Below, one piece after another: positions 37,123-53,143 of a stretch of DNA of 64,000 nt (positions are counted from its first letter, which is position 1; each line of letters starts with the position of its first letter). Source of the stretch: an uncultured Methylomonas sp. Its GTDB lineage: Bacteria > Pseudomonadota > Gammaproteobacteria > Methylococcales > Methylomonadaceae. The DNA is taken from the NCBI GenBank assembly GCA_936941155.1, contig CAKZJE010000106.1:62001-126000 (forward strand). The letters are read 5' to 3'. A model generated the notes under the pieces. It was not told the origin of the DNA, searched no databases, and saw only the letters and a program-made list of their open reading frames with translations. A program made the position numbers and the translations under genes.

Positions 37123-37650
37123 TTAAGCTGCTATTAATTTAAAAAACTCGGCTTCTGAAATAATGTCTCGATTATTTTCCACTCGATCTAAATAAACCAA
37201 TCCTTGTAAATGATCATATTCATGCTGAAAAATGCGTGCGATAAAATCTTTCAGCTGAATCATGTTGAAATCGCCATTCACATCAGTGTAATTGACTTCA
37301 ATTTCTTGATAACGTGGGACTAACGCTCTAATTCCTGAGATGCTTAAGCAGCCTTCCCAATCTTTTTTTTGCTTATCCGATAACGCTTGAAAAGAGGGAT
37401 TTATCATCACAACCGGTTGCATTAAAGGCGCGTCAGGATAGCGTTTAGTGGGTTTTGAGGCGACTACAATAGCACAAATTGAATGGCCAATTTGCGGAGC
37501 GGCTAAACCAACACCACTTGAATCAGCTAAAACATCCAGCATTTCTGCAATAACGCCAGTCACATCTGGTGATTTTACATCGGCAATTGGAGTTGCTGTC
37601 ATCCTTAATACAGGATTCCCCAATTGCGCTATTTCAGTATTTTTTTGCAT
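37123..37650 (-). CDS. def: Peptide deformylase
   Basis: Deformylase removes the formyl group of new polypeptides. The 175 residues have the three family motifs: GVGLAAPQIG near residue 46, WEGCLSISG (Cys metal ligand) near 98, and QHEYDHLQGLVYLDR (the two His metal ligands and Glu) near 140. This is a paralogue outside the usual def-fmt pair, in an ABC transporter operon. The sequence RYPDAPLMQPVVMINP and the slightly altered EGCLS neighbourhood suggest a secondary, type I-like deformylase. Its start overlaps the end of the substrate-binding protein gene by 1 base. Confidence 0.93.
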   Translation of the reverse strand: MQKNTEIAQLGNPVLRMTATPIADVKSPDVTGVIAEMLDVLADSSGVGLAAPQIGHSICAIVVASKPTKRYPDAPLMQPVVMINPSFQALSDKQKKDWEGCLSISGIRALVPRYQEIEVNYTDVNGDFNMIQLKDFIARIFQHEYDHLQGLVYLDRVENNRDIISEAEFFKLIAA

Positions 37651-38669
37651 TATTTAGGGAAAATAGAGTGAATATCGTCACCGATATTATTTAAATCCGC
37701 TGTTTTTGCAAATTGATCGTCCACTAATCCGACAATATTATTATTTTTTATCAATCCCAAACTTAACATATCATCCGCCATAGCCTGCATTTCTTCTTGT
37801 TTTGGTTGATAAAGATTAAACAGGACTCTATCAGCCGGTGTGTTTAAAGCGTAATTAACCAACGGCAAAGGCGCATTCCAATATTTTGACGCAATTTTTG
37901 CAGCCTGACCTAAATGACTTTTAGCCCAAAAACCAGATCGAGCTGCCGCAGTAACCATCATTTTGACGGTTTCAGGGTCTCTTTTAATAAAATCACCTCT
38001 TACTACCATCAAATTACAAATAAAATGTTCCGCAATTTCCTCTACATAAAACAGTTTTTCCGCTTCACCTGCTTTTAACGTTCTAGCTGCAAAAGGTTCA
38101 CCAACAAAATAAGCATCTAATACACCAGAGGCCAAAGCAGCCGCCATATCAGGTGGATTCATTTCCACGATTTTAATTTGCCCCTCCAACCCTCTTTTTT
38201 TCAACAGCTTTCTCAGGGTGATATTATGCCCTGAAAAACGAGTAGGGACGGCAATCGTGCTGCCTGCTAAATCACTTAATGATCGGATTTTTAAGCCTTT
38301 GCGGGTCACTAATGTGCTTTCATGGCGATTGCCAATATAAACGACTTTAACATCTTCACCTTGTTGCTTTAAAACGATGGAAAGCGGTGCAATAATAAAT
38401 GCTGCATCAATTTTTCCGTTGCGTAAAGACTCCGCCATTTCAGAAAAAGAGGAAAATTTCAAAGCGTTAAAACGAATATCTTCATTTCCTAAGCTTGCAT
38501 AATCCAATAAAGGAGCTGCCAAATTAGTTATTACAGGCATGTAGCCCATGTAAACTGTTTTTTTACTACCGTGATCAAAGTTTAAGTAATAATGCGCTGC
38601 TGAAATAAAAACTAACCAACTGATGACAATAGCCGTAATTTTTACAGGTAGGCTTAGTTTAAACGGCAT
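37650..38669 (-). CDS. NitT/TauT-family ABC transporter substrate-binding protein
   Basis: The protein (339 residues from ATG 38669) has an N-terminal hydrophobic segment (ITAIVISWLVFISAAHYYL) that could anchor it or be a signal sequence; no lipobox is visible. The NMT1/SsuA-like core follows: GYMPVITNLAAPLLDYASLG, then GKIDAAFIIAPLSIVLKQQ, and IRSLSDLAGSTIAVPTRFSG. Such proteins bind sulfonates, taurine, nitrate, bicarbonate or pyrimidine precursors; the substrate cannot be told by eye. The ATP-binding protein gene overlaps it by 11 bases; a GTG at 38678 is another possible start. Confidence 0.82.
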   Translation of the reverse strand: MPFKLSLPVKITAIVISWLVFISAAHYYLNFDHGSKKTVYMGYMPVITNLAAPLLDYASLGNEDIRFNALKFSSFSEMAESLRNGKIDAAFIIAPLSIVLKQQGEDVKVVYIGNRHESTLVTRKGLKIRSLSDLAGSTIAVPTRFSGHNITLRKLLKKRGLEGQIKIVEMNPPDMAAALASGVLDAYFVGEPFAARTLKAGEAEKLFYVEEIAEHFICNLMVVRGDFIKRDPETVKMMVTAAARSGFWAKSHLGQAAKIASKYWNAPLPLVNYALNTPADRVLFNLYQPKQEEMQAMADDMLSLGLIKNNNIVGLVDDQFAKTADLNNIGDDIHSIFPK

Positions 38670-39450
38670 AACTAACACCTAACATGAAAAATATCTCATC
38701 GCGTAATTCTCTTAGTTCTGGATGAGAACCTAAGTCTCGGGGTCTGCCAAAACTTAACTTTCGCTCCAATTTCACTTGTGAAGGTCGTCCACTCATCACA
38801 ATCACTCTGTCCCCCATAATCAATGCGTCATCAATATCATGAGTAACAACCAACGTGGTTTTTTTGATGAACTCGTGCATATTCACCACTTCTTCACGCA
38901 TTTTCATGTGCGTTAAAAAATCTAATCCACTAAAAGGCTCATCCATAATTAAAGTATCTGGATTAACCGCTAAAGCCCTTGCCAATTCTGCTCGACGCAA
39001 CATACCACCGGATAATTGATGCGGATAATGGTTTTCAAAATTCCCCAATTCAACCATATTAATGTAATCTTGAATAATTTTATGTTTTTTTTCTGTATCT
39101 TCTAAATGACGCACGCCAAGTTCAACATTTTCCCAAACAGTCATCCAAGGTAATAAACCGCTATGCTGAAACACAAAAATACTATCTGCTCGCGGCTGGC
39201 TAACCACCTCACCATTGATCAGCACATGTCCTGAAGTTGGTTTTTCAAACCCTGCAATCATACGCAACATAGTTGATTTTCCACAACCAGAAGGCCCTAA
39301 AATACAAACCATTTCTCCATCTTGGAATTCTAAATTAATATCATTTAAAACAACAATATCTTGATTTTTAAAACTTTTTTCTTCTCCACGAGCTATACGT
39401 CTTTGATCAATATAGGATTTTTTTAAATTTTTTATTTGAATATGACTCAT
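38659..39450 (-). CDS. NitT/TauT-family ABC transporter ATP-binding protein
   Basis: The ATPase subunit has 263 residues from ATG 39450 and contains Walker A GPSGCGKST near residue 56. The signature follows (LSGGMLRRAELARALAVNP), then Walker B TLIMDEPFSGLDFLT and switch His VVTHDIDDAL. It belongs to the SsuB/TauB/NrtC class. The start codon overlaps the permease stop by 1 base. An insertion of about 15 residues after the first strand (DQRRIARGEEKSFKNQD) is unusual. Confidence 0.92.
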   Translation of the reverse strand: MSHIQIKNLKKSYIDQRRIARGEEKSFKNQDIVVLNDINLEFQDGEMVCILGPSGCGKSTMLRMIAGFEKPTSGHVLINGEVVSQPRADSIFVFQHSGLLPWMTVWENVELGVRHLEDTEKKHKIIQDYINMVELGNFENHYPHQLSGGMLRRAELARALAVNPDTLIMDEPFSGLDFLTHMKMREEVVNMHEFIKKTTLVVTHDIDDALIMGDRVIVMSGRPSQVKLERKLSFGRPRDLGSHPELRELRDEIFFMLGVSYAV

Positions 39451-40211
39451 TATTTTGTCAGCCTTCCCCACGCAGTGGATTCAATATTGCCTAGTTTGCG
39501 CATAATAAAATCCAATAATAATCCTATAATTCCAATCGCAATCATTCCTACCATCACATAATCCATCCGCAGTGCGTTTCTGGAATCTAAAATCAAATAA
39601 CCCAGCCCAGATTGTACCGCTATCATTTCAGCAGCCACCACAACCAACCAAGCAATCGCAATAGTCATTCTTAACGCAGTAATCACTTGCGGAGTAATGG
39701 CGGGAATCACTATTTTTGTTAAAACCTCGTAACGGCTAAAATTAAAATTTGCCGCAACTTGGAAAAAAGTAGGTCTAATAGACTCAACAGCAACGCTAGT
39801 TGACACAACCATTGGAAAAAAGCTCGCTAAAAATATTAAAAAAATAGCAGGAGGGTCGCCAATTCCAAACCACAACATTGCTAAAGGAATCCACGCTAAT
39901 GGAGAAATAGGACGTAAAAACTGTACTAGAGGATTAAATAAAAACTTTGCATTTTCTAAGCGTCCTAAAATAATTCCTAAAGGTACGCCTAATAATACAG
40001 CAAGTGAAAAACCAATACTGACCCTAAAAAGACTCGCAACTGTATTTTTTAATAATTTACCATTAACAATTAACTCTTCAGTGCTTATTAAAACTTCAAT
40101 CGGCTTTGGAAAGTTATTGCTACTTATATCACCAAAGCGCGTAACTAACTCCCATAGAATTATGATAAAAAAAAATGTTACTAATGGATAAATTATTCTT
40201 TTATGAGGCAT
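39450..40211 (-). CDS. NitT/TauT-family ABC transporter permease
   Basis: The 253 residues have six membrane segments, starting IIYPLVTFFFIIILWELVTR, and the BPD_transp_1 EAA region FFPMVVSTSVAVESIRPTFF with a coupling helix ANFNFSRYEVLTKIVIPAIT. It is an SsuC/TauC-type permease. The gene starts a six-gene minus-strand run (permease, ATPase, binding protein, def, Sel1 protein, gltX). The 122 bp upstream of it separate it from the chemosensory operon, whose parA ends at 40334. Confidence 0.92.
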   Translation of the reverse strand: MPHKRIIYPLVTFFFIIILWELVTRFGDISSNNFPKPIEVLISTEELIVNGKLLKNTVASLFRVSIGFSLAVLLGVPLGIILGRLENAKFLFNPLVQFLRPISPLAWIPLAMLWFGIGDPPAIFLIFLASFFPMVVSTSVAVESIRPTFFQVAANFNFSRYEVLTKIVIPAITPQVITALRMTIAIAWLVVVAAEMIAVQSGLGYLILDSRNALRMDYVMVGMIAIGIIGLLLDFIMRKLGNIESTAWGRLTK

Positions 40212-40333
40212 TCATTGTCCTTTGTGAACTAAAATAATTAACATAAAAACATTAAAATATTTTTTAAATATATTTAAGATTTTATCAACTTATCTACATT
40301 ATTTAGAATAGAGGTACAGTTAAAAATCTGACT

Positions 40334-41236
40334 TTAAACCGCTTCAACTTCTTTAGCTAATGCTTTATATTGCAGTGCGGAAGTTGATTTTTCATCATAA
40401 AATATCACAGGCTGATTCACTATTTGTGACTCTTGCATTTTAAAATCAAAATTGATAATCGTATTAAACATTTTGTCTTTATAGCGGGCTTTTAATTTGG
40501 AAAAAACAACTTTCGACGCAGTGTTTTTTTCATCATACATTGTTAATAATACTCGGTAATCTAACAAATGTGTTTTTGCTAACGCTTTGATAATATTCTC
40601 AGTTTGCATCACGCCATTCATTGCTAAAAACTCGGCTTGTGTTGGCACGATCACAAAATCAGCGGCGAGCAAAGCATTCGGAGTAAAAAATTTTATTGAA
40701 GGCGGTGTATCAATTAAAATGCAATCAAAATGACTTTTAATCGGCTCTAATAAATTGCGCAGAAAAAAACCAAAATCTTTTTGTTGTAAACAATCTTTTG
40801 CTAATAACGACATTTTGCTATTAGCTGGCAATAACCATAAATTAGGACGAACACTTTTCACTATTTTTAATATTTCGGCTTCTTTTTTCATCACTTCATA
40901 AAAAGAAAGCTGATTTTTTTGTCCTAATAACAAACTTAAATTAGCTTGCACATCAAAATCAATTAATAAAACTCTTTTTCCTGATAATGACAGAGATGCG
41001 CCTAAATTAAGACAAGTTGATGTTTTTGCTACGCCGCCTTTTTGATTGCAAATTGCAATAATTTTTTTATCAGGGGCAATATTGTGGGGAGTTAATTCAT
41101 AAACATCTTCTTTGGGAGATGTATCAACTGAAAAAACATGTTCGCATTTTGAACATCTGACTTTAAATAAAGTTTTTTTGATTAAACTAATATCTAATTG
41201 AAATCGTGTTTTGCATTTATCACAAATAATAATCAT
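40334..41236 (-). CDS. ParA-type ATPase with N-terminal zinc ribbon
   Basis: The 300-residue protein is a fusion. Residues 1-42 are an MJ0042-type zinc ribbon (CDKC near 5 and CSKC near 29). A ParA/MinD/Soj ATPase follows: deviant Walker A CNQKGGVAKTSTCLNLG near residue 64, DFDVQANLSLLLGQ, and Walker B-like CILIDTPPSIKF. ParA ATPases of this class position plasmids, chromosomes and chemosensory arrays. It is the last gene of the chemosensory operon, 20 bases after the CheB-like gene, so an array-positioning role like ParC is plausible. The zinc-ribbon fusion is not part of known ParC proteins. Confidence 0.85.
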   Translation of the reverse strand: MIIICDKCKTRFQLDISLIKKTLFKVRCSKCEHVFSVDTSPKEDVYELTPHNIAPDKKIIAICNQKGGVAKTSTCLNLGASLSLSGKRVLLIDFDVQANLSLLLGQKNQLSFYEVMKKEAEILKIVKSVRPNLWLLPANSKMSLLAKDCLQQKDFGFFLRNLLEPIKSHFDCILIDTPPSIKFFTPNALLAADFVIVPTQAEFLAMNGVMQTENIIKALAKTHLLDYRVLLTMYDEKNTASKVVFSKLKARYKDKMFNTIINFDFKMQESQIVNQPVIFYDEKSTSALQYKALAKEVEAV

Positions 41237-41256
41237 AACAGGCTCGTATTTAATGC

Positions 41257-42315
41257 TTAAGATAAAGTAGCTGCTTTTTCATTAATTAAAGCTTCTATTT
41301 CATGGGAGAGTTTTATTTCTTCAACAATCATATCAACTACCCCTCTTTCAATAGCGCATTTAGCTAAATTAGGATAAACACAAGTATCCGTTTTTTGTGC
41401 CATTGTAATGCCTGATTTTTCTTTAATATTAAAAAATCCGTCAGAGCCATCATCGCCAATCCCTGTCAATAATAGCCCGATTGTACGTCGCCCAAACACA
41501 TTAGCAGCGGATGAAAACAAGGTATTTAAAGGTTTTCCCACTGCCTCGCCTACTTTTAAATACGCTTCTTGGTTGTCATTAACTTCTATGGATAATGAAT
41601 ATTCATTAGAGGCCACATAACACACACCGGCTTCTAAAATAGTTCCATCTGTTGCCTCGCACATATGCCAAGCCGTATATTTATCAAACTCTTTTACAAA
41701 TGCGGGTAAAATTTTGGGAGAAATTTCTTGCATAACAACGGCGGCGGCGGATAGTTTAGGCGGTAATTCTGAAAAAATACGAATGGACGTATTAGGCCCA
41801 CCTAACGTTGTTCCCATTAACAATAAATAATCTAACGCCTGTAATCCATAATAATCTTCTAGTTTATTTAATTCATCCGATGGTTGAATTTTTACTCGAT
41901 GGATATTATCAATATTAACGGCAACCGCCATTTTTATCCTATCAATAATCTGTTGTTTAGCTTTGTGAATATCTTGCGAAATTGCTCCAGATGGTTTAGG
42001 CAGAAAATCCACCACACCTAATCTTAACGCTTCAAAAGTAATCGCTCCGTTGTTAAAAAGCGAACTTAGCATGACGATGGGAACTGGGCATTCTAACATA
42101 ATATGCCGCACGGTTCTGAGCCCGTCCATAATCGGCATATCAACATCAAGCGTAATCACATCAGGGCAAAGTTCTTTGATTTTTTCCAACGCTTGCAAGC
42201 CATTTTTTGCAGAACCTACCACTTCAATCTCTGCATCAGAATTTAAAATTTCGCTCACAGCCTTGACCATAAAACTTGCATCATCAACGACTAAAACTTT
42301 TATTTTTTCCGCCAC
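41257..42315 (-). CDS. CheB-like response regulator with degenerate methylesterase domain (copy 1)
   Basis: I chose GTG 42315, since AGGA lies 6 bases upstream; ATG 42345 is an alternative. The 352 residues start with a receiver domain (VLVVDDASFM, phospho-Asp in VITLDVDMPIMDG, then SSLFNNGA). The second half follows the CheB methylesterase order but lacks key residues. The Ser of the family GASTGG motif is replaced in LLMGTTLGGPN, and the catalytic His of the MQHMP motif is Glu in VVMQEISPKI. The Asp in LLTGIGDDGSDG is retained. It should therefore be inactive as an esterase/deamidase. The gene lies between cheA and parA. Confidence 0.85.
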   Translation of the reverse strand: MAEKIKVLVVDDASFMVKAVSEILNSDAEIEVVGSAKNGLQALEKIKELCPDVITLDVDMPIMDGLRTVRHIMLECPVPIVMLSSLFNNGAITFEALRLGVVDFLPKPSGAISQDIHKAKQQIIDRIKMAVAVNIDNIHRVKIQPSDELNKLEDYYGLQALDYLLLMGTTLGGPNTSIRIFSELPPKLSAAAVVMQEISPKILPAFVKEFDKYTAWHMCEATDGTILEAGVCYVASNEYSLSIEVNDNQEAYLKVGEAVGKPLNTLFSSAANVFGRRTIGLLLTGIGDDGSDGFFNIKEKSGITMAQKTDTCVYPNLAKCAIERGVVDMIVEEIKLSHEIEALINEKAATLS

Positions 42316-42387
42316 AGCGATCCTCTCAACTCGGAAGTATTTCAACAGATGAAACAGGCTAAATGCCCTAAAATCACTAGCCCCACA

Positions 42388-45300
42388 CTATTCAGCTAGT
42401 GATGCTAATGATTTTTTCTCTTGCTCGTGATGCTTTTTAATTTGCTTATCGGTCGTCATATTAATTAATTCATACACATCTAAAATTAAAGAAATACGTC
42501 CATCACCAATAATAGTTGCGCCAGAAAAACAATTTTGCTCATGCAAATAATCGGCTAGCGGTTTAATAACCACTTCTTCTTGTCCTAAGAGCGCGTCAAC
42601 CATTAAACCAATCCGTTGATTGCCCGTGTTTACGACAACCACAAAGAAATCGGTTTCGCCTGATTTTTGACTGGATTGAAGTCGGAATAACGTAGCCAAA
42701 CGGAAAATAGGCAAAGTTTTACCGCGTAAATACATCACCTCGGTTTCTTCCATAATTGAAATTTCCGATTCAGAAACCCGCAATGTTTCTTCTACGTTAG
42801 CTAATGGAATCGTGAAAGAATCTTCTCCAACCCGCACCAACAATGCCTGAATAATCGCAAGTGTTAGTGGGATTTTTAAGCGAATTTTAGTTTCAATCCC
42901 AATTTTTGATTCAACTTCAATTGTGCCATTTAATTTCTCAATATTCTTTTTCACCACATCCATGCCCACGCCACGCCCGGAAGTGCTGTTTATTTCTTTC
43001 GCAGTTGAAAAACCCGGCATCATAATAAAACGCGTTAAATCTTCTTTCGTCATTCTGTTTAGCTCTTCTTTGCTAAACAAATTCATTTCTTCGGCTTTAG
43101 CTTTGATTTTATCCGTATCAATGCCTTTGCCATCATCGGTCACTTCAATCACGATATGGTTACTTTCATGGTACGCCTCTAAAATCAACGTGCCTGTTTC
43201 GGATTTGCCTGCTTTTTTCCGCATCTCAGGTGTTTCAATGCCATGACCTATCGCATTTCTAATCATGTGGATTAAAGGATCTGAAATTTCTTCAATAATC
43301 ATTTTATCCAGCTCAGTTTCCTCGCCTCGAATTTCTAACTGAACTTTTTTAGCGTTTACATGAGCCAAATCGTGCACTAAGCGTGGATAGCGATTGAAAA
43401 TCTGTGCAATCGGCAACATCCTGACTTTCATCACGCCTTCTTGCAATTCATTTGAGGTGCGACCTAACGAAATCACCGCCTCACTAAAACGATACGCAAA
43501 AGTGCGCACAGGTTTTAAATCTTTTTGCCCTAACCCAGTCACAGATTTTAAATACTGTTGTAGCTCATTAATTTCACTGGCTAATTGGAAAAAATACGCT
43601 CTATCAACAATTAACTCACCGACTTGATTCATTAACGAATCAATTTTATCGGCATCTACGCGAATACTTTTCTTAAATGCCTTATCTGCACTAACTTCTG
43701 TTTTAGCTTTTTTCACAGTATTGTTATCTACTGCATTTATCACTGCGTTTGGTTTTGGCGTTGCTTCGGGCGTTGAAGTTCCTTTAACTTCTTCTTTGAT
43801 AGCATTGATAACTTTAGTGGGAATTTCTTGGTTTGCCTGATCTAACGTTTTAATATTCAGTTGCAAACTGTGTTCTTTTTCAGCTTTGGCTCGACTTTGC
43901 TCTTCTTTGCTAGTCGCAAGCAATGCACCAAATAACTCGTTAACCGGCTCAGAAGTAATGGAATGTTCAATAGAAGAATCTAAAGCACTGCTTAGTTTTT
44001 TAAATAAATCTGAGTCTTCCCCATCGTCTTCGGCGTAATTTATTTCTACACCAGATGGCTCTGGAATACTCACTATGGCAAGTTTTTCTGCTGCAACAGT
44101 ATTCGGCTGTTCTTGAATTAAGTCGTTAATGAAAGCAAGAGTCGCCGTTTCTGTCGCCTCATCAATCACTAAATTATCTAAAGAATGTACGAATGGATTT
44201 AACTCTGGAGTTGGTTTTTTTACCGCTGTTGCGGCTTCTTGCAGTTGTGGAAAAATAGATTGCAGCTTCCGCAAATAGTCATTCATAAATGCAAATGACA
44301 TAGGCTCAGTGACAATTGTTAAATTTTCCAAACAATCAATCACTTCCTCTATCCATTTGACATAAATGATTGTCAATTGTTGGTACGCCATATAATTAGC
44401 TGAAAACTTAAGGCTTTCCAACGCTTCCAGCGAGGCGTTTAATAATTCTGCTGGATTGTTTGCGCTAGGTAGTTTCTCAACATAGTCATTGAGTAATGAA
44501 AATTTTTCTTTCAGCTGTTGTATAAAGATACCAAACAGTTCTTGGTCATATTCTTCATCTGGTAAAACAAAATCTTCATTCAATTCAGGCGCAAGTTCAA
44601 TCGCTGTTTCTGGCTGCGTTTCTTCAGACAAAAATTCAGAAATCTCATTGTCCGCACTGCTTTCTGCCAAAAATTCTGATAAGTCATCTTCTTGATTATT
44701 ATCGTTATTCTCTACAGAAAGAAAATCTTCCGCTTGCTCCTGAGTATCTCCAGATAAGAATGAACTGATGTCATCATCTATCTTTTCTTCCGTGACAAAT
44801 GACGATAATTCTTCTTCAGGATTCTCATTGCTGAGAAAACTCACTTGTTGTTCTTCAGTGCTTTCAGACAAGAAAGAACTAAAGTCATCTTCTAAATTAT
44901 CTTCAGTTAAAAATGCCGATAAATCCTCATCCCCAGTGGCTTCTTCTAGGAATGAGGAAATCTCTACATCATCTTGTGATGCAGATGTTGCTGTTGGACT
45001 TTCGGCTATGACTGTTGCACTATCCTCTGTTAAGTGGTGATTAATTTGTGCAATTAAATCATCTACTTCGGTTTGCTCTGTTTGGGTTCGCTCTAAGTCC
45101 GTAACTAATAAACTAATCCTATCTTTAGTCTTAATCATTAGGTCAACAATCTCTATTGTGACTTGTCTTTGCCCATTTCTGAGCAAATCGAGCAAATCTT
45201 CTAACACATGACTTAAAGCTGACACTTTATCTAACCCCACAAACTGTGCTGCGCCTTTAATGGTGTGCATCGCTCGGAAAATAGTATTCAGTAGCTCAAG

Positions 45301-45402
45301 ATTATTTGGATTTGTTTCAAGCTCAAGCAAGGCATTTTCCATTTCATCCAAGCTCTCCCCTGCACCTGTTACAAAGTCTTCAAGTAGAGATAAATCAATC
45401 AT
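42388..45402 (-). CDS. cheA: Chemotaxis histidine kinase CheA
   Basis: CheA passes phosphate from the receptor array to response regulators. ATG 45402 (ribosome-binding site AAGG) gives 1004 residues. HPt P1 carries the phospho-His in FRAMHTIKGAAQFV near residue 46. About 145-270 is an acidic linker of nine FL-centred units (for example DLSAFLTED, DISSFLSGD). A second HPt-like helical segment (LFGIFIQQLKEKFSLL, then ALESLKFSANYMAY) lacks a His. The dimerisation region, then the HATPase boxes DPLIHMIRNAIGHGIETP, VTDDGKGID and GRGVGMDVVKKNIEKL follow, and a CheW-like regulatory domain ends the protein. The genes before and after are cheY and cheB-like. Confidence 0.94.
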   Translation of the reverse strand: MIDLSLLEDFVTGAGESLDEMENALLELETNPNNLELLNTIFRAMHTIKGAAQFVGLDKVSALSHVLEDLLDLLRNGQRQVTIEIVDLMIKTKDRISLLVTDLERTQTEQTEVDDLIAQINHHLTEDSATVIAESPTATSASQDDVEISSFLEEATGDEDLSAFLTEDNLEDDFSSFLSESTEEQQVSFLSNENPEEELSSFVTEEKIDDDISSFLSGDTQEQAEDFLSVENNDNNQEDDLSEFLAESSADNEISEFLSEETQPETAIELAPELNEDFVLPDEEYDQELFGIFIQQLKEKFSLLNDYVEKLPSANNPAELLNASLEALESLKFSANYMAYQQLTIIYVKWIEEVIDCLENLTIVTEPMSFAFMNDYLRKLQSIFPQLQEAATAVKKPTPELNPFVHSLDNLVIDEATETATLAFINDLIQEQPNTVAAEKLAIVSIPEPSGVEINYAEDDGEDSDLFKKLSSALDSSIEHSITSEPVNELFGALLATSKEEQSRAKAEKEHSLQLNIKTLDQANQEIPTKVINAIKEEVKGTSTPEATPKPNAVINAVDNNTVKKAKTEVSADKAFKKSIRVDADKIDSLMNQVGELIVDRAYFFQLASEINELQQYLKSVTGLGQKDLKPVRTFAYRFSEAVISLGRTSNELQEGVMKVRMLPIAQIFNRYPRLVHDLAHVNAKKVQLEIRGEETELDKMIIEEISDPLIHMIRNAIGHGIETPEMRKKAGKSETGTLILEAYHESNHIVIEVTDDGKGIDTDKIKAKAEEMNLFSKEELNRMTKEDLTRFIMMPGFSTAKEINSTSGRGVGMDVVKKNIEKLNGTIEVESKIGIETKIRLKIPLTLAIIQALLVRVGEDSFTIPLANVEETLRVSESEISIMEETEVMYLRGKTLPIFRLATLFRLQSSQKSGETDFFVVVVNTGNQRIGLMVDALLGQEEVVIKPLADYLHEQNCFSGATIIGDGRISLILDVYELINMTTDKQIKKHHEQEKKSLASLAE

Positions 45403-45414
45403 AGCCAATCCTTA

Positions 45415-45768
45415 TCAATCGCTGATAACATCAAGAATATCTTGTGCTTTATGCTTATTTACAAAGCCTACTGCGCCAATACTTGCTACATCATTGCCGT
45501 ATTTTTCTTTATCTAAGTTCGATAGAAAAAGGATGTGAGCATCGCCGTCATAATTTAAGATTAACCTCGCCGCGCTCAAGCCATCCATTTCACCCATGGT
45601 AATATCCATTGTGACTAAATCGGGCTTTAAGCTTTTGTAAAGCTCTAAGGCCTCAAGCCCGTTTTTAGCTTCGCCCACAATAGAATGACCACCTTTATCA
45701 GCTAGGACTTTAGACAGCATTTTTCGCATCATTGAGGAGTCATCAACAATTAAGATACGTTTGCTCAT
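45415..45768 (-). CDS. cheY: CheY-like single-domain response regulator
   Basis: The 117 residues are one receiver domain: ILIVDDSSMMRKML (acidic pair), phospho-Asp in LVTMDITMGEMDGL near residue 55, and FLSNLDKEKYG (Ser in place of Thr87). The end has AVGFVNKHKAQDILDVI with the conserved Lys. No output domain. It lies directly before cheA, as expected for an operon CheY. The partner could be a flagellar or pilus motor. Confidence 0.9.
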   Translation of the reverse strand: MSKRILIVDDSSMMRKMLSKVLADKGGHSIVGEAKNGLEALELYKSLKPDLVTMDITMGEMDGLSAARLILNYDGDAHILFLSNLDKEKYGNDVASIGAVGFVNKHKAQDILDVISD

Positions 45769-45798
45769 AAATTCACCACTTTTGTCATACTTAACTTA

Positions 45799-46332
45799 TT
45801 ATTCATCCGCATCATTATTGTCCTGATTAAGCGTGATGCTTTTTAGTTTTTTCACTTCGTCAACCAGCAAAATGCGACTAAAATCAAGTAGGATAAGTAG
45901 GTTGTCATCAATTTCACAAACACCTCTGATGTATTGACTGTGCAATCCTGCCACTAAAATATCAGGCGGTGGGTCAATGCTATTTTCTTGAACTTTGATA
46001 ACTTCAGTAACAGAATCAACAATAAAGCCTGTGACTCTGCCACCTATATCTAAAATTAAAATCCAATCCTTTTCTTTTGCATAACTTGAGCTATGCAGAT
46101 TAAGCCGTTTGCGTAAATCAATGACGGGAATAATGCTACCGCGCAAATTAATCACACCTTCTACAAACTCAGGTGAATTAGGAACATAGGTAATCGGCGC
46201 GGAACGAATAATCTCCTGAACCATCAGAATGTCCACGCCAAAAATTTCTTTACCTATCTTAAAGCCCACCAGTTGAATGAGTTGTTCTTTATCCGATGAG
46301 TCAATTCTACTTGCTGTATATCTATCAGCCAC
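45799..46332 (-). CDS. cheW: CheW coupling protein
   Basis: CheW links receptors to CheA. The 177 residues match the CheW beta-barrel fold: LVGFKIGKEIFGVDILMVQE, then NSPEFVEGVINLRGSIIPVI and IGGRVTGFIVDSVTEVIKV. GLHSQYIRGVCEIDDNLLIL is near the end. It lies 18 bases after the MCP gene and 30 bases before cheY. Confidence 0.93.
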   Translation of the reverse strand: MADRYTASRIDSSDKEQLIQLVGFKIGKEIFGVDILMVQEIIRSAPITYVPNSPEFVEGVINLRGSIIPVIDLRKRLNLHSSSYAKEKDWILILDIGGRVTGFIVDSVTEVIKVQENSIDPPPDILVAGLHSQYIRGVCEIDDNLLILLDFSRILLVDEVKKLKSITLNQDNNDADE

Positions 46333-46350
46333 AACAAATACTCCTTAAGA

Positions 46351-49300
46351 CTAGATTTTGAACTGTTTTACCTGAGTAGTCAGTTCTTGTGACAAGTCTT
46401 GCAAGCCTTTGGTAATGCTCACAACCACACCCGCTCCTTCCACAGTTTGTGCCGCAGCATCTGCTGAAGCGGTGGAAAGTTCTGTTACTTTTTTAGACCG
46501 CACTGCTTGTTCGCCTGTCATTTTACTCATTTCATCAGTACGCACCACAATCCCTGTCATTTCTTGACCGATGTCTGTTGCGCCTTTGTTTGCCTCCGCA
46601 ACCAATGCAGTAATACGCTCTGATTCTTCTAGTAACAATGTCAACGCTTTTTCCGCAGCAACCCGACGTGTTCCTTGCTCACCCGCCATACCAGCAATGT
46701 TTTCAGCCAATTTATTCAACTCTTTCATCAGGTTTTGTACCTGAGCAGTTCCTGTTGCCAATACTGTTGCAGTTTTTTCAATTTCGTCAATCGCCTGCAT
46801 GTTGACTCGACCACCTTCGTCAATTTTAATCAACGATTTTTGTGACTCGTCGGTTAATTTTGATCCGTCTTCAACCCTTGCGCTTGAGTCTTTAATCAAC
46901 TGTGTAATTTCTTTGGCAGCCTCTGAAGAACGTTGTGCTAGTTTACCAACCTCGTCCGCAACCACCGCAAAACCTTTACCATGCGCACCCGCTCTTGCCG
47001 CCTCAATCGCAGCGTTCAAAGCAAGTAAGTTGGTTTGTTCTGCGATTTCGGTGATTACACCGATGATGTCAGAAATTTGCTCGGAAGATTCAGCAATCGC
47101 CTGCATCCCTTCTACCGTTGAAGCTACTGAACGTCTACCTTCTTCAGCCGCTAACAGCGAAGCCTTGCCATGTAAGGTCGCCTGCGCAACCGCTTTGTTC
47201 ATGCTTTCTACCGCGCTGGTGATTGAAGTAACCGCAGTTGATACTTTTGCCACCATCGCGCCTTGCTCTCTTGCAGTTGCCACAACCTGTGCACCTGTTG
47301 CCCCCATTTCAGAAACCCTAGCCATCGTTTCTTTCGCTTCCTTGTTTTGGGTTTTCGCCGCTTCCGATACTTCGCTAACTGATTTTAATAGATTTCTAAC
47401 GGTTTTCGCTGATACTTCCGCCGCTACTTTTTGTCCTTCAGAAGCTTGGTTTACCTTAGCAGCCGTGCTACCCATGTCACCAATAATGCCCACAGATTCT
47501 TTGGCTCGCACCAACTCATTTGCAGCCCTTTCTCTGTTACCAGCGGCACGTTTCGCCACATTTTCCGCACTTTCAGCAACATTCACCGCAGAATTGTTTA
47601 CAACGATAAAGGCTTTGTGAATCACGCTAATCATAGTGTTAAACGCTTTTGACATTGTGCCGATCTCGTCGTTACCCCCTTCTGGAACGGTTAAAGTCAA
47701 ATCACGCTCATTCGCAATCTGCGTAATAACGCTCGCCATTTTTGTAATCGGACCCGCAATAGATGCAGCAACCAATAACGCAATTAAAATAACCGATACC
47801 AATACCACACTACCCATCACACCCATAGTACGAGCAAATCTGGTGACAGGCGCGAAAGCTTCATCTGTATTTTGTTTCGCAATTAACACCCAAGTTAAAT
47901 CACCGTAAATTTTTACAGGTGCGTAGGCGGCAATAATTTCTTTACCCGTGTAACCCATCATGGTTTTTGCATCGGCTTTTTGGAATCCTTCTTCAGTCGC
48001 AACAGTTTTTACTACGCCTGTTTCAGGTTTATCAAATGACGCTTGCAGTTTGTGGTCAGTATCCTGAATCGAGTCAGATCGCATTAAATAATCAGGCCCT
48101 ACAACATAAGACTCGCCTGTTTCACCCAAACCAGTTCGTTCTTGCATGATGGCGTTAATACCATCGGGCGGTAACTGTACGGCCACCGTGAACAAAGTCT
48201 TGCCTTTATCTATAACAGGTTGAGCAACGAAAGCAGCTACCCTGTTACCAGAAGCAGCGTAACGATCGAAGTCTTCAAATGCGAAACCGCGTTTATCGAA
48301 AGATTTTTTTGCCACACGAGCCAGACCGGTGTTTTTATATTGACCAGTGAAAACGTTGGTATTGTAATCTGCCTCATGTGCCACTGTGTAGAAGACCTGA
48401 CCGTCTTCTGCTACTAGCATAATGTCATAATAGTTATAGTCTTTAACATATTTAGCAAAGTAATCCTCTGTTTCACCTTGCGCTTTTGGCGAGATAATCT
48501 CTTCAACCGGTACAGTGGTAATAATACCCCAGTTAAAACCAGGTAATTTGACGGTATCGTAAAGCGATAACTCGTATTTGCCGGTTGCACCAACCTTAAA
48601 GTCAATGCCTGATTGTCCACCAACCGCCGCTTCAACATAACCAATTGCGGCTCTTTCCTCACCGATTTTACCTTCTTTCACCACGCGGTCAGAGCGGTAA
48701 GTAAATTTACCGTTAGGGTCTTTTGCGATTACAAACGATTCACCAGCAGCAGTATAACCAGTTCGTTCCTGAAGAATAGCGTTAATCTCTTCGTTTCTTA
48801 TCTGAAAAGCTGCCGCACCTAAATATGCGCCCGTTTCATCAAATAAGGGTGTTGCCGCAAAAGAAGCGAAAGCTTTTAGCGGCTCGTAAAAAGCAAAGTC
48901 TTCTACTGCCGCTTCAGTACGCGATTTGGCAAAAACTTTTCCTAGCACAGAGTCTTTCAAATTGCCGGTTTTGACATTTTGCCCAACATCAGTACCCGCA
49001 TTAGTTGAGTAAATCACGTTGCCGTTATAGTCAATCAAGATAACGTCTGCCACCGCAAAGTTTTCTTTAATGGACTTCAGACCTTTTTCCCGTGCAGCCT
49101 GTACCGCTTTATACTGCGGACTCGACATACCTAAAGCATAAGCTTGGGTAAATTCTCTGATACCAACAGTAAAACGAATGTTCAAACGGGTATCATCTGT
49201 TAGGTTGATAATCCGGTTATAGTAGTTTTGCACCCGATCGCGTTTTTGCGACTGAATCCCCTCTAACGCCGAGGAAGATTGTTGCCAGAATACTTGCGCC

Positions 49301-49530
49301 GTTTGAGCCAATGTACCCATAACGTCTTTACGCTGCTCAAAGTACATTTCAAGCTGCTTCTTTTTGGTTTCTCGAATACCTTCGAGCTGAGCTGTAATCT
49401 GATTTCTTAACGCGCTATCAGAAGTAAGATAAGCGATAGAACTACCGCCTATGAAAGGAATTAAACCTACCATTAAGAAGAAAGCCAGAAGCTTGATTCT
49501 TAAGTTAAGATCATTGAACCATGTCATCAT
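46351..49530 (-). CDS. Large methyl-accepting chemotaxis-type receptor with tandem sensory domains
   Basis: The 1059 residues are about twice a typical MCP. TM1 is [19 protein letters not shown] near residue 14. The large extracytoplasmic part has two related cache-like halves, with repeated motifs [18 protein letters not shown] (near 250) and [18 protein letters not shown] (near 463). TM2 is [20 protein letters not shown] near 570, followed by a HAMP domain ([20 protein letters not shown]). The signalling tip is [20 protein letters not shown]. No C-terminal CheR/CheB-binding pentapeptide like NWETF is visible; the end is TTQVKQFKI. It is the only receptor gene in the operon. Confidence 0.9.
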
Positions 49531-49566
49531 TATGGATTCTCCGCTTGAATAAACATTTTATTAGAC

Positions 49567-50628
49567 TTAAAAATTTAATTTGGGTAAAAATTTCACGATT
49601 TCTGCGGCTATTTCCGTGTCCGCCACCACAACTTCCGCTTCACACATATCTAAAGCTGATAATGCCATGCCTTTGTACAAACAGCTGACCGGAGCTTGAA
49701 TAATTGCGCCGCCCCCTACGCGCACAATCTCTTCCAATCCTTCTGACCCGTCTGTACCTTCACCTGATAACACCACGCCTAGCGAATATCTTCCGACCGT
49801 TTCTGCCACTGAAAACATCAACATATCAATGGTGCCGCGACGCGAAGAAAAAGGAGCTGGACTGACATAAGAAACTACACTACCGCGCTGCCCGTGTACT
49901 GTGACGTATTCTTCACCAGAACTTATATAACAAACACCTGCTTCGAGCAAGGTATTGTTCTGCGGTCTTTGTACTTTCACGGCGGTATATTGATTAAGAT
50001 ATTTAATAAATCCGTCAACATGAGCGGATGTTTCATAAAATATCACCATATACGCTGTTGCAGGATAAGGTGTGAGTCGCAAAATGATTTTTAATAATGT
50101 TCCGTATCCGCCTTCTGCTACACCTAAGGCAACAATATTTTTACAAGCTTTTTGCAACGGCAATCCTAATTCAATCTTAGCTTTAGGATTCACTCTAATA
50201 TATTGAATCGCATTAACTTTAACTCTTGCAGCTAACCGTATTTTTTGAATAATTTGTCGGGCTTGATTTTTTAAAACCTCACTATTTTCAAGTTTAGAAG
50301 GTTTAGCAATAAAGTCAATTGCACCATATCTCAGTGCGTCAAAAGTAATATCCGCGCCTTCTTGTGCTAAAGAGCTGAGCATAACGGTCGGCACAGGACT
50401 AAAAATCATAATGTGCTTAAGCGTTGTCAGCCCATTCATGCCCGGCATAATAATATCAAGCGTCACCAAGTCTGGCTTAAGCTTTGGAATCAGTGCCAAT
50501 GCTTCTGCGCCGCTGCTTGCTTGCCCTACCACTTGCAAGTCATCGCTGCTATTAATGATGTCAACAATTGCTTGCCGGATAAGACTGGAATCGTCAACGA
50601 CTAAAATTTTATAAAGTGCTTTTGCCAT
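49567..50628 (-). CDS. CheB-like response regulator with degenerate methylesterase domain (copy 2)
   Basis: The 353 residues begin with a receiver domain (ILVVDDSSLIRQAI, phospho-Asp in LVTLDIIMPGMNGL). The CheB catalytic-domain order is kept, but the Ser of GASTGG is gone in NIVALGVAEGGYGTL, the His site is a Tyr in VIFYETSAHVDGFI, and only the Asp near VVLSGEGTDGSEG remains. It shares about the same layout as the copy at 41257-42315, so the two are paralogues with independent or common loss. It follows the PatA-like gene by 2 bases. Methylesterase and deamidase activity is unlikely; the domain may be a CheW/receptor-binding or phosphate-sink module. Confidence 0.83.
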   Translation of the reverse strand: MAKALYKILVVDDSSLIRQAIVDIINSSDDLQVVGQASSGAEALALIPKLKPDLVTLDIIMPGMNGLTTLKHIMIFSPVPTVMLSSLAQEGADITFDALRYGAIDFIAKPSKLENSEVLKNQARQIIQKIRLAARVKVNAIQYIRVNPKAKIELGLPLQKACKNIVALGVAEGGYGTLLKIILRLTPYPATAYMVIFYETSAHVDGFIKYLNQYTAVKVQRPQNNTLLEAGVCYISSGEEYVTVHGQRGSVVSYVSPAPFSSRRGTIDMLMFSVAETVGRYSLGVVLSGEGTDGSEGLEEIVRVGGGAIIQAPVSCLYKGMALSALDMCEAEVVVADTEIAAEIVKFLPKLNF

Positions 50629-50630
50629 GA

Positions 50631-52862
50631 CTATTTATTTAAGTATTTGCGAACAACCATTAATAGTTGATCCGGTTGAAAAGGTTTTGTCAGATACTCA
50701 TTTGCATCCGATACCTTTCCTTTTAGTTTGTCAAACAAACTATCACGCGAAGTCAACATCACCACTGGCAATTTTTCAAACATTGGCTTTTGTCTGATTT
50801 CAGCCAATATTTCATAGCCATCTTTACCCGGTAAAATAATATCTAACAACACTAAATCAGGATTTCTTTCTTCTATATCTGTCAGAGCTTCAAACGCATT
50901 TTTGGCTTCAAAAACGTGATAACCACTCGCTATTAATGTTCTGGCAATCACTTTACGAGTCACCATACTATCTTCAACAACCAGAATTTTTTGTTGATGT
51001 GCCGATGCACTATAAACCATGCTATGACTTTCGTGATGCAAATGATCTGTAGTGGCTAACGCCAATCCCATGGAATTCATGTAATCGTGCAAAATCTTGC
51101 TCTGCATCAGCAAGGCATTATTTTCAGACGTTTGTTTAGAAATTTCATGCAGTTGATCTAAGCCTTCTTGATAATATTTGCGATTAAGATAAGCCATTGC
51201 CAAATAAAAACGCAGGTAAAGATTTTGCTTCCCTAACTGTTCTTGTTGTAAGGCATTGGAATATCGCTCAATAGCTTTGTCTAATACATCAAATTTCGCT
51301 TTTCCGACCAGTTTAAAAAAATCAGGCGTAATAAAAAAATGCGCTTTGCAATGAGGGCATTCAACGTCCTGCTCATCGGTTGGCATCCAACAAAATGGGC
51401 AGCGTAAAACAAAGTCGCCTTTGATTATTTTTTTCGCTTGGGTAAATTTTTTTATCTCTTCGATTAAATCAGGATTTCTGGCATTGAGATGTGCGGCTTT
51501 TTTTAATGCAATTTCTATCGCAGTCATGTTATGAACAACACGCGACAACCAAAGCCAGCCTTTAAAATTATCTTCATAACTGATTAGAATTTGACACAAC
51601 AACTGCTCGGCACTGCTGGGGTCAAAACTTTCGGCAAGATGAATTGCTTTTGCAATCAACACAATTTCATCGGATTTACTCATTGTAGGTTTATGTAACT
51701 GGGAAAGAGGTGCTTCTTGCAGCTTTTCCACCTCTTTTACCAACACATCAACCGTTTGATGAATTTTTCGAGAAACGCCCTCCTGTGCTACACCTCTAAA
51801 TACCATGTAATCGGCAACCCATTGCATCATTTCCATTGCAACCACTTTGCCATTCATATCGCACTGCACAGCGTTAGTTAAAATCCCTTTGTCAAAATAA
51901 AATCCACCGACTTTTTCTTTTTCCCGTACTTCCAGCAAACCAGTTTTGCCTGACTTTTCCAGCAAATGCAAAACATCTAACAAGGTAACTGAGTTACCTA
52001 TATTGCCTGCCTGCTCAAGTTGTACAGCTAATCTGTTCAGCAAATTTGCATCAAGCTCATTTTGTCCACTATGCGTAGTAATACAAAGAGCTAAACACAA
52101 AGGATTTAAGCGGATTTTTTTCTGCGAGCCTTTTAATCCAGCTAAAACAGCGTCCTGACTTTTTAAATTGTATTGTTTGATAAACGTGACAATGCCTTGC
52201 TTAAAAAACTGTTGTTGTTCAAGGCTTAAGGTTTGTTTGGCGATTTTTTCGATAACAGCATTTAACTCTTTAAAATCAACTGAATTGATAATCTCTTTCA
52301 AGTAATCCAAATAAACAATTCTAGCAACGGGGCCTATCAGAACGGCTAATTGTTCTTCAATACCAACCATGCCGGTTACAGCAAGAATCTCTGGAATTTG
52401 TTGTGCAACCTCTGAAACCTGATAGCTCGATGGCACTTCAATATTTAAAGGATTATGTTGTTGCGTGCGTTCAACTGATTCAGGTTTTTCTGCTACCGCT
52501 TGGGTAATATGCGTGGGTTGAGTTTGTGCAGTAGCTGATTGCATACCAGCCACTAACAGCCGAAAGATTTCTTCTGTTGATAACGCAATTTTAGGTGCAG
52601 TGTCAGATGCTTGTCCTAAGCGACTGGAAAAAGAAGCCTGTCCTTGTTTGATAGTTTTAATTAATGCAAGAGCGGCCTCGCCCGTTTGACCTTTGAAAAT
52701 AACATCAAAAATCACGCCTTGTTCAAGCACTAACTTGGCTGAATGCTCTGAGCCGTCATTAATAAACATAGTGCCCGTTCTGTTTTCTTTACACAAACGC
52801 TGTAAAGTTAAAAGCAGCTCACGATAATTTAATAATCGCACGGTAGATGTGTCTTGCTGCAT
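50631..52862 (-). CDS. PatA-like DUF4388/receiver protein of the chemosensory operon
   Basis: From ATG 52862, with ribosome-binding site GGGAG 9 bases upstream, the protein has 743 residues. It has an N-terminal DUF4388 domain (NRTGTMFINDGSEHSAKLVL, residues 25-80) and a second near 295-360 (LLEKSGKTGLLEVREKEKVG). A helical stretch follows, then a zinc-ribbon-like CPFCWMPTDEQDVECPHC near 490 and TPR-like helices. A C-terminal receiver domain starts ILVVEDSMVTRKVIARTL (phospho-Asp in LVLLDIILPGKDG). DUF4388/REC proteins of the PatA type act in gliding or heterocyst signalling. It is the first gene of the operon. Confidence 0.82.
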   Translation of the reverse strand: MQQDTSTVRLLNYRELLLTLQRLCKENRTGTMFINDGSEHSAKLVLEQGVIFDVIFKGQTGEAALALIKTIKQGQASFSSRLGQASDTAPKIALSTEEIFRLLVAGMQSATAQTQPTHITQAVAEKPESVERTQQHNPLNIEVPSSYQVSEVAQQIPEILAVTGMVGIEEQLAVLIGPVARIVYLDYLKEIINSVDFKELNAVIEKIAKQTLSLEQQQFFKQGIVTFIKQYNLKSQDAVLAGLKGSQKKIRLNPLCLALCITTHSGQNELDANLLNRLAVQLEQAGNIGNSVTLLDVLHLLEKSGKTGLLEVREKEKVGGFYFDKGILTNAVQCDMNGKVVAMEMMQWVADYMVFRGVAQEGVSRKIHQTVDVLVKEVEKLQEAPLSQLHKPTMSKSDEIVLIAKAIHLAESFDPSSAEQLLCQILISYEDNFKGWLWLSRVVHNMTAIEIALKKAAHLNARNPDLIEEIKKFTQAKKIIKGDFVLRCPFCWMPTDEQDVECPHCKAHFFITPDFFKLVGKAKFDVLDKAIERYSNALQQEQLGKQNLYLRFYLAMAYLNRKYYQEGLDQLHEISKQTSENNALLMQSKILHDYMNSMGLALATTDHLHHESHSMVYSASAHQQKILVVEDSMVTRKVIARTLIASGYHVFEAKNAFEALTDIEERNPDLVLLDIILPGKDGYEILAEIRQKPMFEKLPVVMLTSRDSLFDKLKGKVSDANEYLTKPFQPDQLLMVVRKYLNK

Positions 52863-53143
52863 TAAGAAATCTCCCATTGCTCGAATGAAAAACAAATTTT
52901 CAACATAACTTATGATTTCCGATCAATCTAACTTACGGTCTGTAAGTGATAAGTATAGTTAAAAAAGCGAATTTCTTAACTTAATTCTTTTTAAGTTTTA
53001 AGAATAATGCCAATCTCACTTAGCATCAAAAATACGTTATTTTTACAAGGTAATGACACCATAATAGTGCAATCGTTTAGTGGGGTCAAAAGTAGATTGA
53101 TTGAATAGATAGAATAAGACTGCGGAAAATCAATTGCCGAGAG

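Follow-up and report, generated by a model that had tools for sequence, protein, structure and literature searches.

CheB is a response regulator with an enzymatic effector that resets chemoreceptors, and its methylesterase activity requires a Ser, a His, and an Asp. Why, then, does a chemosensory operon of an uncultured Methylomonas sp. encode two CheB-like proteins that both lack the Ser and the His? We addressed this question in a window of 64,000 nucleotides, the whole stretch of DNA that was analysed, from a host genome of 4.26 Mb in 124 contigs. The operon extends from 37650 to 52895, beyond the 41257-50628 first assigned to it, and it takes in a PATAN-receiver regulator up to 52895 and, on the other side, ParA and ABC transporter genes that reach 37650. 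Its genes and motifs are given here in the order of transcription, with positions in the window, and the two CheB-like proteins are referred to as c1 and c2.

50631-52895, minus strand: PATAN/DUF4388-receiver response regulator, 754 aa, with N-terminal DUF4388/PATAN-like domains, a TPR-like region, and a C-terminal receiver (Pfam DUF4388 and Response_reg)
51348-51401, minus strand: zinc-ribbon motif of this regulator
49567-50628, minus strand: CheB-like pseudoenzyme 2 (c2), 353 aa, predicted receiver and CheB fold (Pfam Response_reg and CheB_methylest)
50107-50124, minus strand: GVAEGG of c2 (Ser to Ala)
50029-50040, minus strand: FYET of c2 (His to Tyr)
49747-49764, minus strand: GEGTDG of c2 (Asp kept)
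46351-49530, minus strand: chemoreceptor with dCache, HAMP, and signalling domains
47011-47040, minus strand: hairpin tip of the chemoreceptor, with 229 aa of signalling domain past the tip
45799-46332, minus strand: CheW (Pfam CheW)
45415-45768, minus strand: CheY (Pfam Response_reg)
42388-45408, minus strand: CheA, 1006 aa, with Hpt, acidic linker, Hpt-like region, dimerisation, kinase, and CheW domains
45253-45270, minus strand: intact Hpt of CheA, His in MHTIKG
about 44623-44964, minus strand: acidic linker of CheA with [DE][IL]SSFL[ST]E repeats
44392-44421, minus strand: Hpt-like region of CheA, LESLKFSANY, Glu at the His position
41257-42315, minus strand: CheB-like pseudoenzyme 1 (c1), 352 aa, predicted receiver and CheB fold (Pfam Response_reg and CheB_methylest)
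41797-41814, minus strand: GTTLGG of c1 (Ser to Thr)
41719-41730, minus strand: QEIS of c1 (His to Glu)
41446-41463, minus strand: GIGDDG of c1 (Asp kept)
40334-41236, minus strand: ParA/Soj-type ATPase with an N-terminal MJ0042-type zinc ribbon (Pfam AAA_31 and Zn_ribbon_4, TIGR02098, Soj/ParA structure matches)
41144-41224, minus strand: MJ0042-type zinc ribbon of ParA
39450-40211, minus strand: ABC transporter permease (Pfam BPD_transp_1; synteny)
38659-39471, minus strand: ABC transporter ATPase (Pfam ABC_tran; synteny)
37650-38678, minus strand: NMT1/SsuA-like substrate-binding protein (Pfam NMT1_2; TIGR01728 below cut-off; synteny)

A CheA core, a CheW, and a receptor are encoded together, which identifies a CheA-CheW-MCP chemosensory system. 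The operon CheA has one Pfam Hpt domain and no receiver, unlike the Type IV pilus (Tfp/Chp) class, which is marked by a PilJ-like receptor and a ChpA that has a receiver and several Hpt domains. Searching with this CheA across the phylum gave matches of only about 39-48% that were confined to the core. The [DE][IL]SSFL[ST]E repeats of its linker number between 0 and 7 among orthologues, and the LESLKFSANY-type motif with Glu in place of His is found in 4/7 of them; these acidic repeats and the Glu-bearing Hpt-like region might have a docking role. Apart from this, a separate Chp-like operon is present on another contig (C33, L202), with a 1725-aa CheA, a PilJ-like receptor, CheW, and CheY, and with no cheR or cheB seen. 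A promoter scan returned sites no more numerous than in shuffled sequences.

To ask whether c1 and c2 are CheB proteins, we compared them with profiles and structures. Both are above the Pfam cut-offs for the receiver (PF00072) and CheB_methylest (PF01339) domains, and full-length CheB is the top structural match of both AlphaFold models (mean pLDDT of 91.6 and 91.1, in the range of 91-92), in line with the original prediction of two paralogues that each combine a receiver with a CheB-like domain. The c1 model matched 6ymz and 1a2o with a Z-score of 42.1 each (rmsd 1.9-2.0, 328-330 residues aligned), while the c2 model matched 6ymz with 39.7 (rmsd 3.0, 338 aligned) and 1a2o with 39.4. In the NCBIfam CheB subfamily NF001965 the two proteins scored 268.7 and 241.9 bits, both under the cut-off of 293. 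The catalytic triad of the reference, P. atrosepticum CheB (6ymz), is S165-H191-D287 (PMC7698151), and in alignments to this structure that are gapless around the sites, the equivalents are T170/E197/D289 in c1 and A171/Y198/D293 in c2. We also built 39-row alignments of c1, c2, one orthologue, and 36 other CheBs, in which the Ser and Thr of the G-x-S-T-G-G motif and the Gln and His of the Q-H motif are >90% conserved; c1 and c2 deviate at the Ser, Thr, and His, and c2 additionally at the Gln. Based on the structure matches and the triad mapping, c1 and c2 are predicted to have the fold of CheB but not its active site. The possibility that the Ser and His are supplied from shifted positions found no support, as the sites are free of indels and H203, a His close to the old site in c2, is not invariant. 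The hydroxyl of Thr170 is retained by c1 in 7/8 orthologues, and a feeble activity by way of this residue is formally conceivable, although the His is gone.

The next question is whether this loss is recent decay. Our orthologue sets comprise 8 proteins for c1 and 11 for c2, the latter from a c2 profile search that recovered an orthologue in 11/311 genomes of the order, in four genera of methanotrophs. The absence of Ser and His with retention of the Asp, as originally predicted for the two copies, extends to every one of these orthologues: the former Ser position holds only T/N in c1 and only A/G in c2, and the former His position is E in 8/8 c1 and Y in 11/11 c2. The newly fixed residues are L171 and E197 in c1 and E172 and Y198 in c2. 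In a set of 62 CheB domains, made up of loci from a genome-collection scan and the orthologues then known, both Ser and His are kept in 53, and c1 or c2 orthologues account for the other nine; every other aligned CheB of the order has retained both residues. The dN/dS of the CheB-like domains against the host genome is about 0.07-0.18 (Nei-Gojobori, over pairs with measurable dS; several pairs are saturated), and because of these low values we regard c1 and c2 as maintained pseudoenzymes and not decaying genes. The loss of the catalytic residues is fixed and old. A pseudogene or assembly artefact was rejected on the basis of orthologues in several genera and the low dN/dS.

The surrounding genes are maintained as well, and the order PATAN-c2-MCP-CheW-CheY-CheA-c1-ParA-ABC permease is kept in seven relatives with sufficiently long contigs. 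The operon is also carried by the MAG Methylococcaceae bacterium CSMAG_547 (G896), one of the 11 genomes with an orthologue. The idea that paired inactive CheBs occur more widely was not borne out in a genome-collection scan, which found only one further genome but relied on two peptide patterns only and may miss distant cases. A search for the PATAN regulator in 369 genomes of the class had the host genome as its sole match. In a 105-row CheB tree, c1 and c2 cluster with support of 99/95, and the program warns of long branches meeting there. This grouping is consistent with an origin of the pair in one duplication.

If c1 and c2 cannot demethylate receptors, is the operon receptor methylated at all? 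The original prediction of an operon lacking a methyltransferase stood, as there is no cheR in it; elsewhere in the genome, two CheR domains are found. One is a standalone protein on C47, encoded in a second che operon whose CheB is intact and whose receptor is hemerythrin-like. The other is part of a CheB-CheR-PAS fusion (on C18). A CheR acting on the operon receptor is therefore possible in the host genome, and impossible in relatives where CheR is absent. Among operon-bearing relatives, G517 has two CheRs and G130 (99% complete) has a CheB-CheR-PAS fusion as its only CheR, while no CheR was found in the drafts G516 (90% complete) and G896, such drafts being about 90-92% complete; in these two, no CheB domains were found besides c1 and c2. 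The consensus methylation site, [ASTG]2xx[EQ]2xx[ASTG]2, which is a rule of thumb only, is absent from the signalling domain of the host receptor and 6/7 orthologues, even when one position is relaxed. The exception is the receptor of G1053, which has some matches, and the strict consensus is matched by two other receptors of the host genome and one of G517. The operon receptor also has no C-terminal CheR pentapeptide. As no standalone CheR was found in G130, G516, and G896 and the receptor has no consensus sites, the operon system probably works without receptor methylation. Methylation-based adaptation had been proposed to be replaced, and of this proposal the results support the loss.

This evidence also bears on methylation in trans, whereby the C47 CheR would methylate the operon receptor and the C47 CheB would demethylate it, with c1 and c2 acting as competitors or decoys. 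The host does have both enzymes on C47, but the whole operon is kept in a relative that has no standalone CheR (G130) and in those in which none was found (G516 and G896), and the receptor lacks both consensus sites and pentapeptide, so we consider this explanation highly improbable.

What selection maintains in c1 and c2 can be examined by comparing their two domains. The c1 receiver keeps both acidic residues and the phosphorylation Asp, Ser, and Lys in 8/8 orthologues, and it is the most conserved part of the protein (mean conservation of 0.92, compared to 0.79 for the CheB-like part). The phosphorylation residues of the c2 receiver are kept in most orthologues, and mean conservation is 0.75 in this receiver, compared to 0.78 in the CheB-like part. 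Two c2 orthologues, located at L236:2968-4068 and L237:9227-10303, have broken receivers: that of G1050, an incomplete draft (73%), lacks the acidic pair as well as the Lys, and that of G1053 lacks the Lys. In both, the GV[AG]EGGY motif and the Tyr stay in place despite the damage to the receiver. The retention of the CheB-like motif beside a broken receiver makes it unlikely that c2 is purely a phosphate sink.

It has been suggested that these proteins serve as phosphate sinks, scaffolds, or output modules, and a scaffold or binding role fits both of them. In the more general form of the sink explanation, c1 and c2 would essentially drain phosphoryl groups from CheA, and the CheB-like domain would be an inert remnant. 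Receivers that act as sinks have precedent (PMC10782961), and the highly conserved c1 receiver with all of its phosphorylation residues would suit such a function. However, purifying selection on the CheB-like domains is strong, residues at their former active site are fixed, and in c2 this domain is slightly better conserved than a receiver that two relatives have broken. We therefore find it rather improbable that c1 and c2 are sinks.

The fixed residues at the former active site raise another possibility, namely that the pockets have been re-tooled, with E172, Y198, and D293 in c2 and T/N170, E197, and D289 in c1 binding a small molecule or performing different chemistry. E172 and Y198 of c2 and E197 of c1, which occupy or adjoin the old triad positions, are invariant, and this is in favor of re-tooling. 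In contrast, c2 has no nucleophile (Ala/Gly), a structural role may explain the conserved residues, nothing in the models points to a ligand, and the pockets have no known activity or ligand, and we regard re-tooling as unlikely. It is similarly a long shot that pockets rebuilt as new sites for catalysis or ligand binding (Glu172-Tyr198-Asp293 in c2 and Thr/Asn170-Glu197-Asp289 in c1) would give the array feedback through a metabolite or some new modification and not through receptor methylation.

The explanation that we favor, and consider moderately probable, is a chemosensory array that does not depend on methylation and has reused CheB as a binding or scaffold response regulator. The dCache receptor and CheW would control CheA, which would phosphorylate CheY, the PATAN-receiver regulator, and the c1 and c2 receivers. 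In true CheB the fold acts on the receptor, and here it would be a binding module. Because its receiver is nearly invariant, c1 may be a phosphorylation-gated partner that binds the receptor or CheA, with this feedback substituting for demethylation. Because its receiver is dispensable in some relatives, c2 may be mainly a structural scaffold.

Compared to the CheB methylesterases 1a2o and 6ymz, c1 and c2 are alike in predicted fold, domain order, triad Asp, and the GG and GxGxDG loops, but they differ in having no Ser/His in any orthologue, in falling under the NCBIfam cut-off, in being two copies, and in lacking an operon cheR. Chemosensory systems without CheR/CheB adaptation exist in Helicobacter pylori and in the cyanobacterial Pix/Tax systems, and the operon shares with these a CheA-CheW-CheY-receptor logic without a methylation cycle. 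Those systems lack CheB, whereas this one keeps two putative CheB-fold pseudoenzymes and has adjoining ParA and ABC transporter genes. Arrays are segregated by ParA-type proteins such as PpfA of R. sphaeroides and ParC of Vibrio, and a ParA gene is likewise found in this che operon, although it differs by its zinc ribbon; this ParA probably positions the chemosensory array. Degenerate CheA domains have been described in ChpA, with Hpt domains that have no His, and in CheA3 of R. sphaeroides (PMC10782961). There, too, a che domain is retained past the loss of a catalytic or phosphorylation residue, but in CheA and not in CheB. We found no report of inactive CheB paralogues in the open-access literature, a scope that leaves most subscription papers outside. 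We rate a chemosensory system with CheB pseudoenzymes as a new variation on known chemosensory systems. The presence of such a pair without an operon CheR suggests that the fold can persist for something besides catalysis, and the operon would be a natural system in which to study non-enzymatic roles of CheB and methylation-free adaptation.

The first gene, encoding the PATAN-receiver regulator, is likely the output of the system, and it would be the main one, perhaps acting on a motility or pilus machine. Regulators of this kind are also encoded in cyanobacterial tax operons (PMC5812497, PMC10519157), where their target is the pilus motor PilB (PMC10519157), and by analogy with these a motility output is plausible here. 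The regulator is longer in some relatives, at about 890-906 aa (L233:5773-8490 and L221:1388-4066), and that of CSMAG_547 has two receiver domains at its end. At the other end, the ABC transporter with its NMT1/SsuA-like binding protein may share the operon and couple ligand uptake to sensing. In relatives with contigs that reach that far, this transporter lies directly behind ParA, with a gap of 18 bp in G130.
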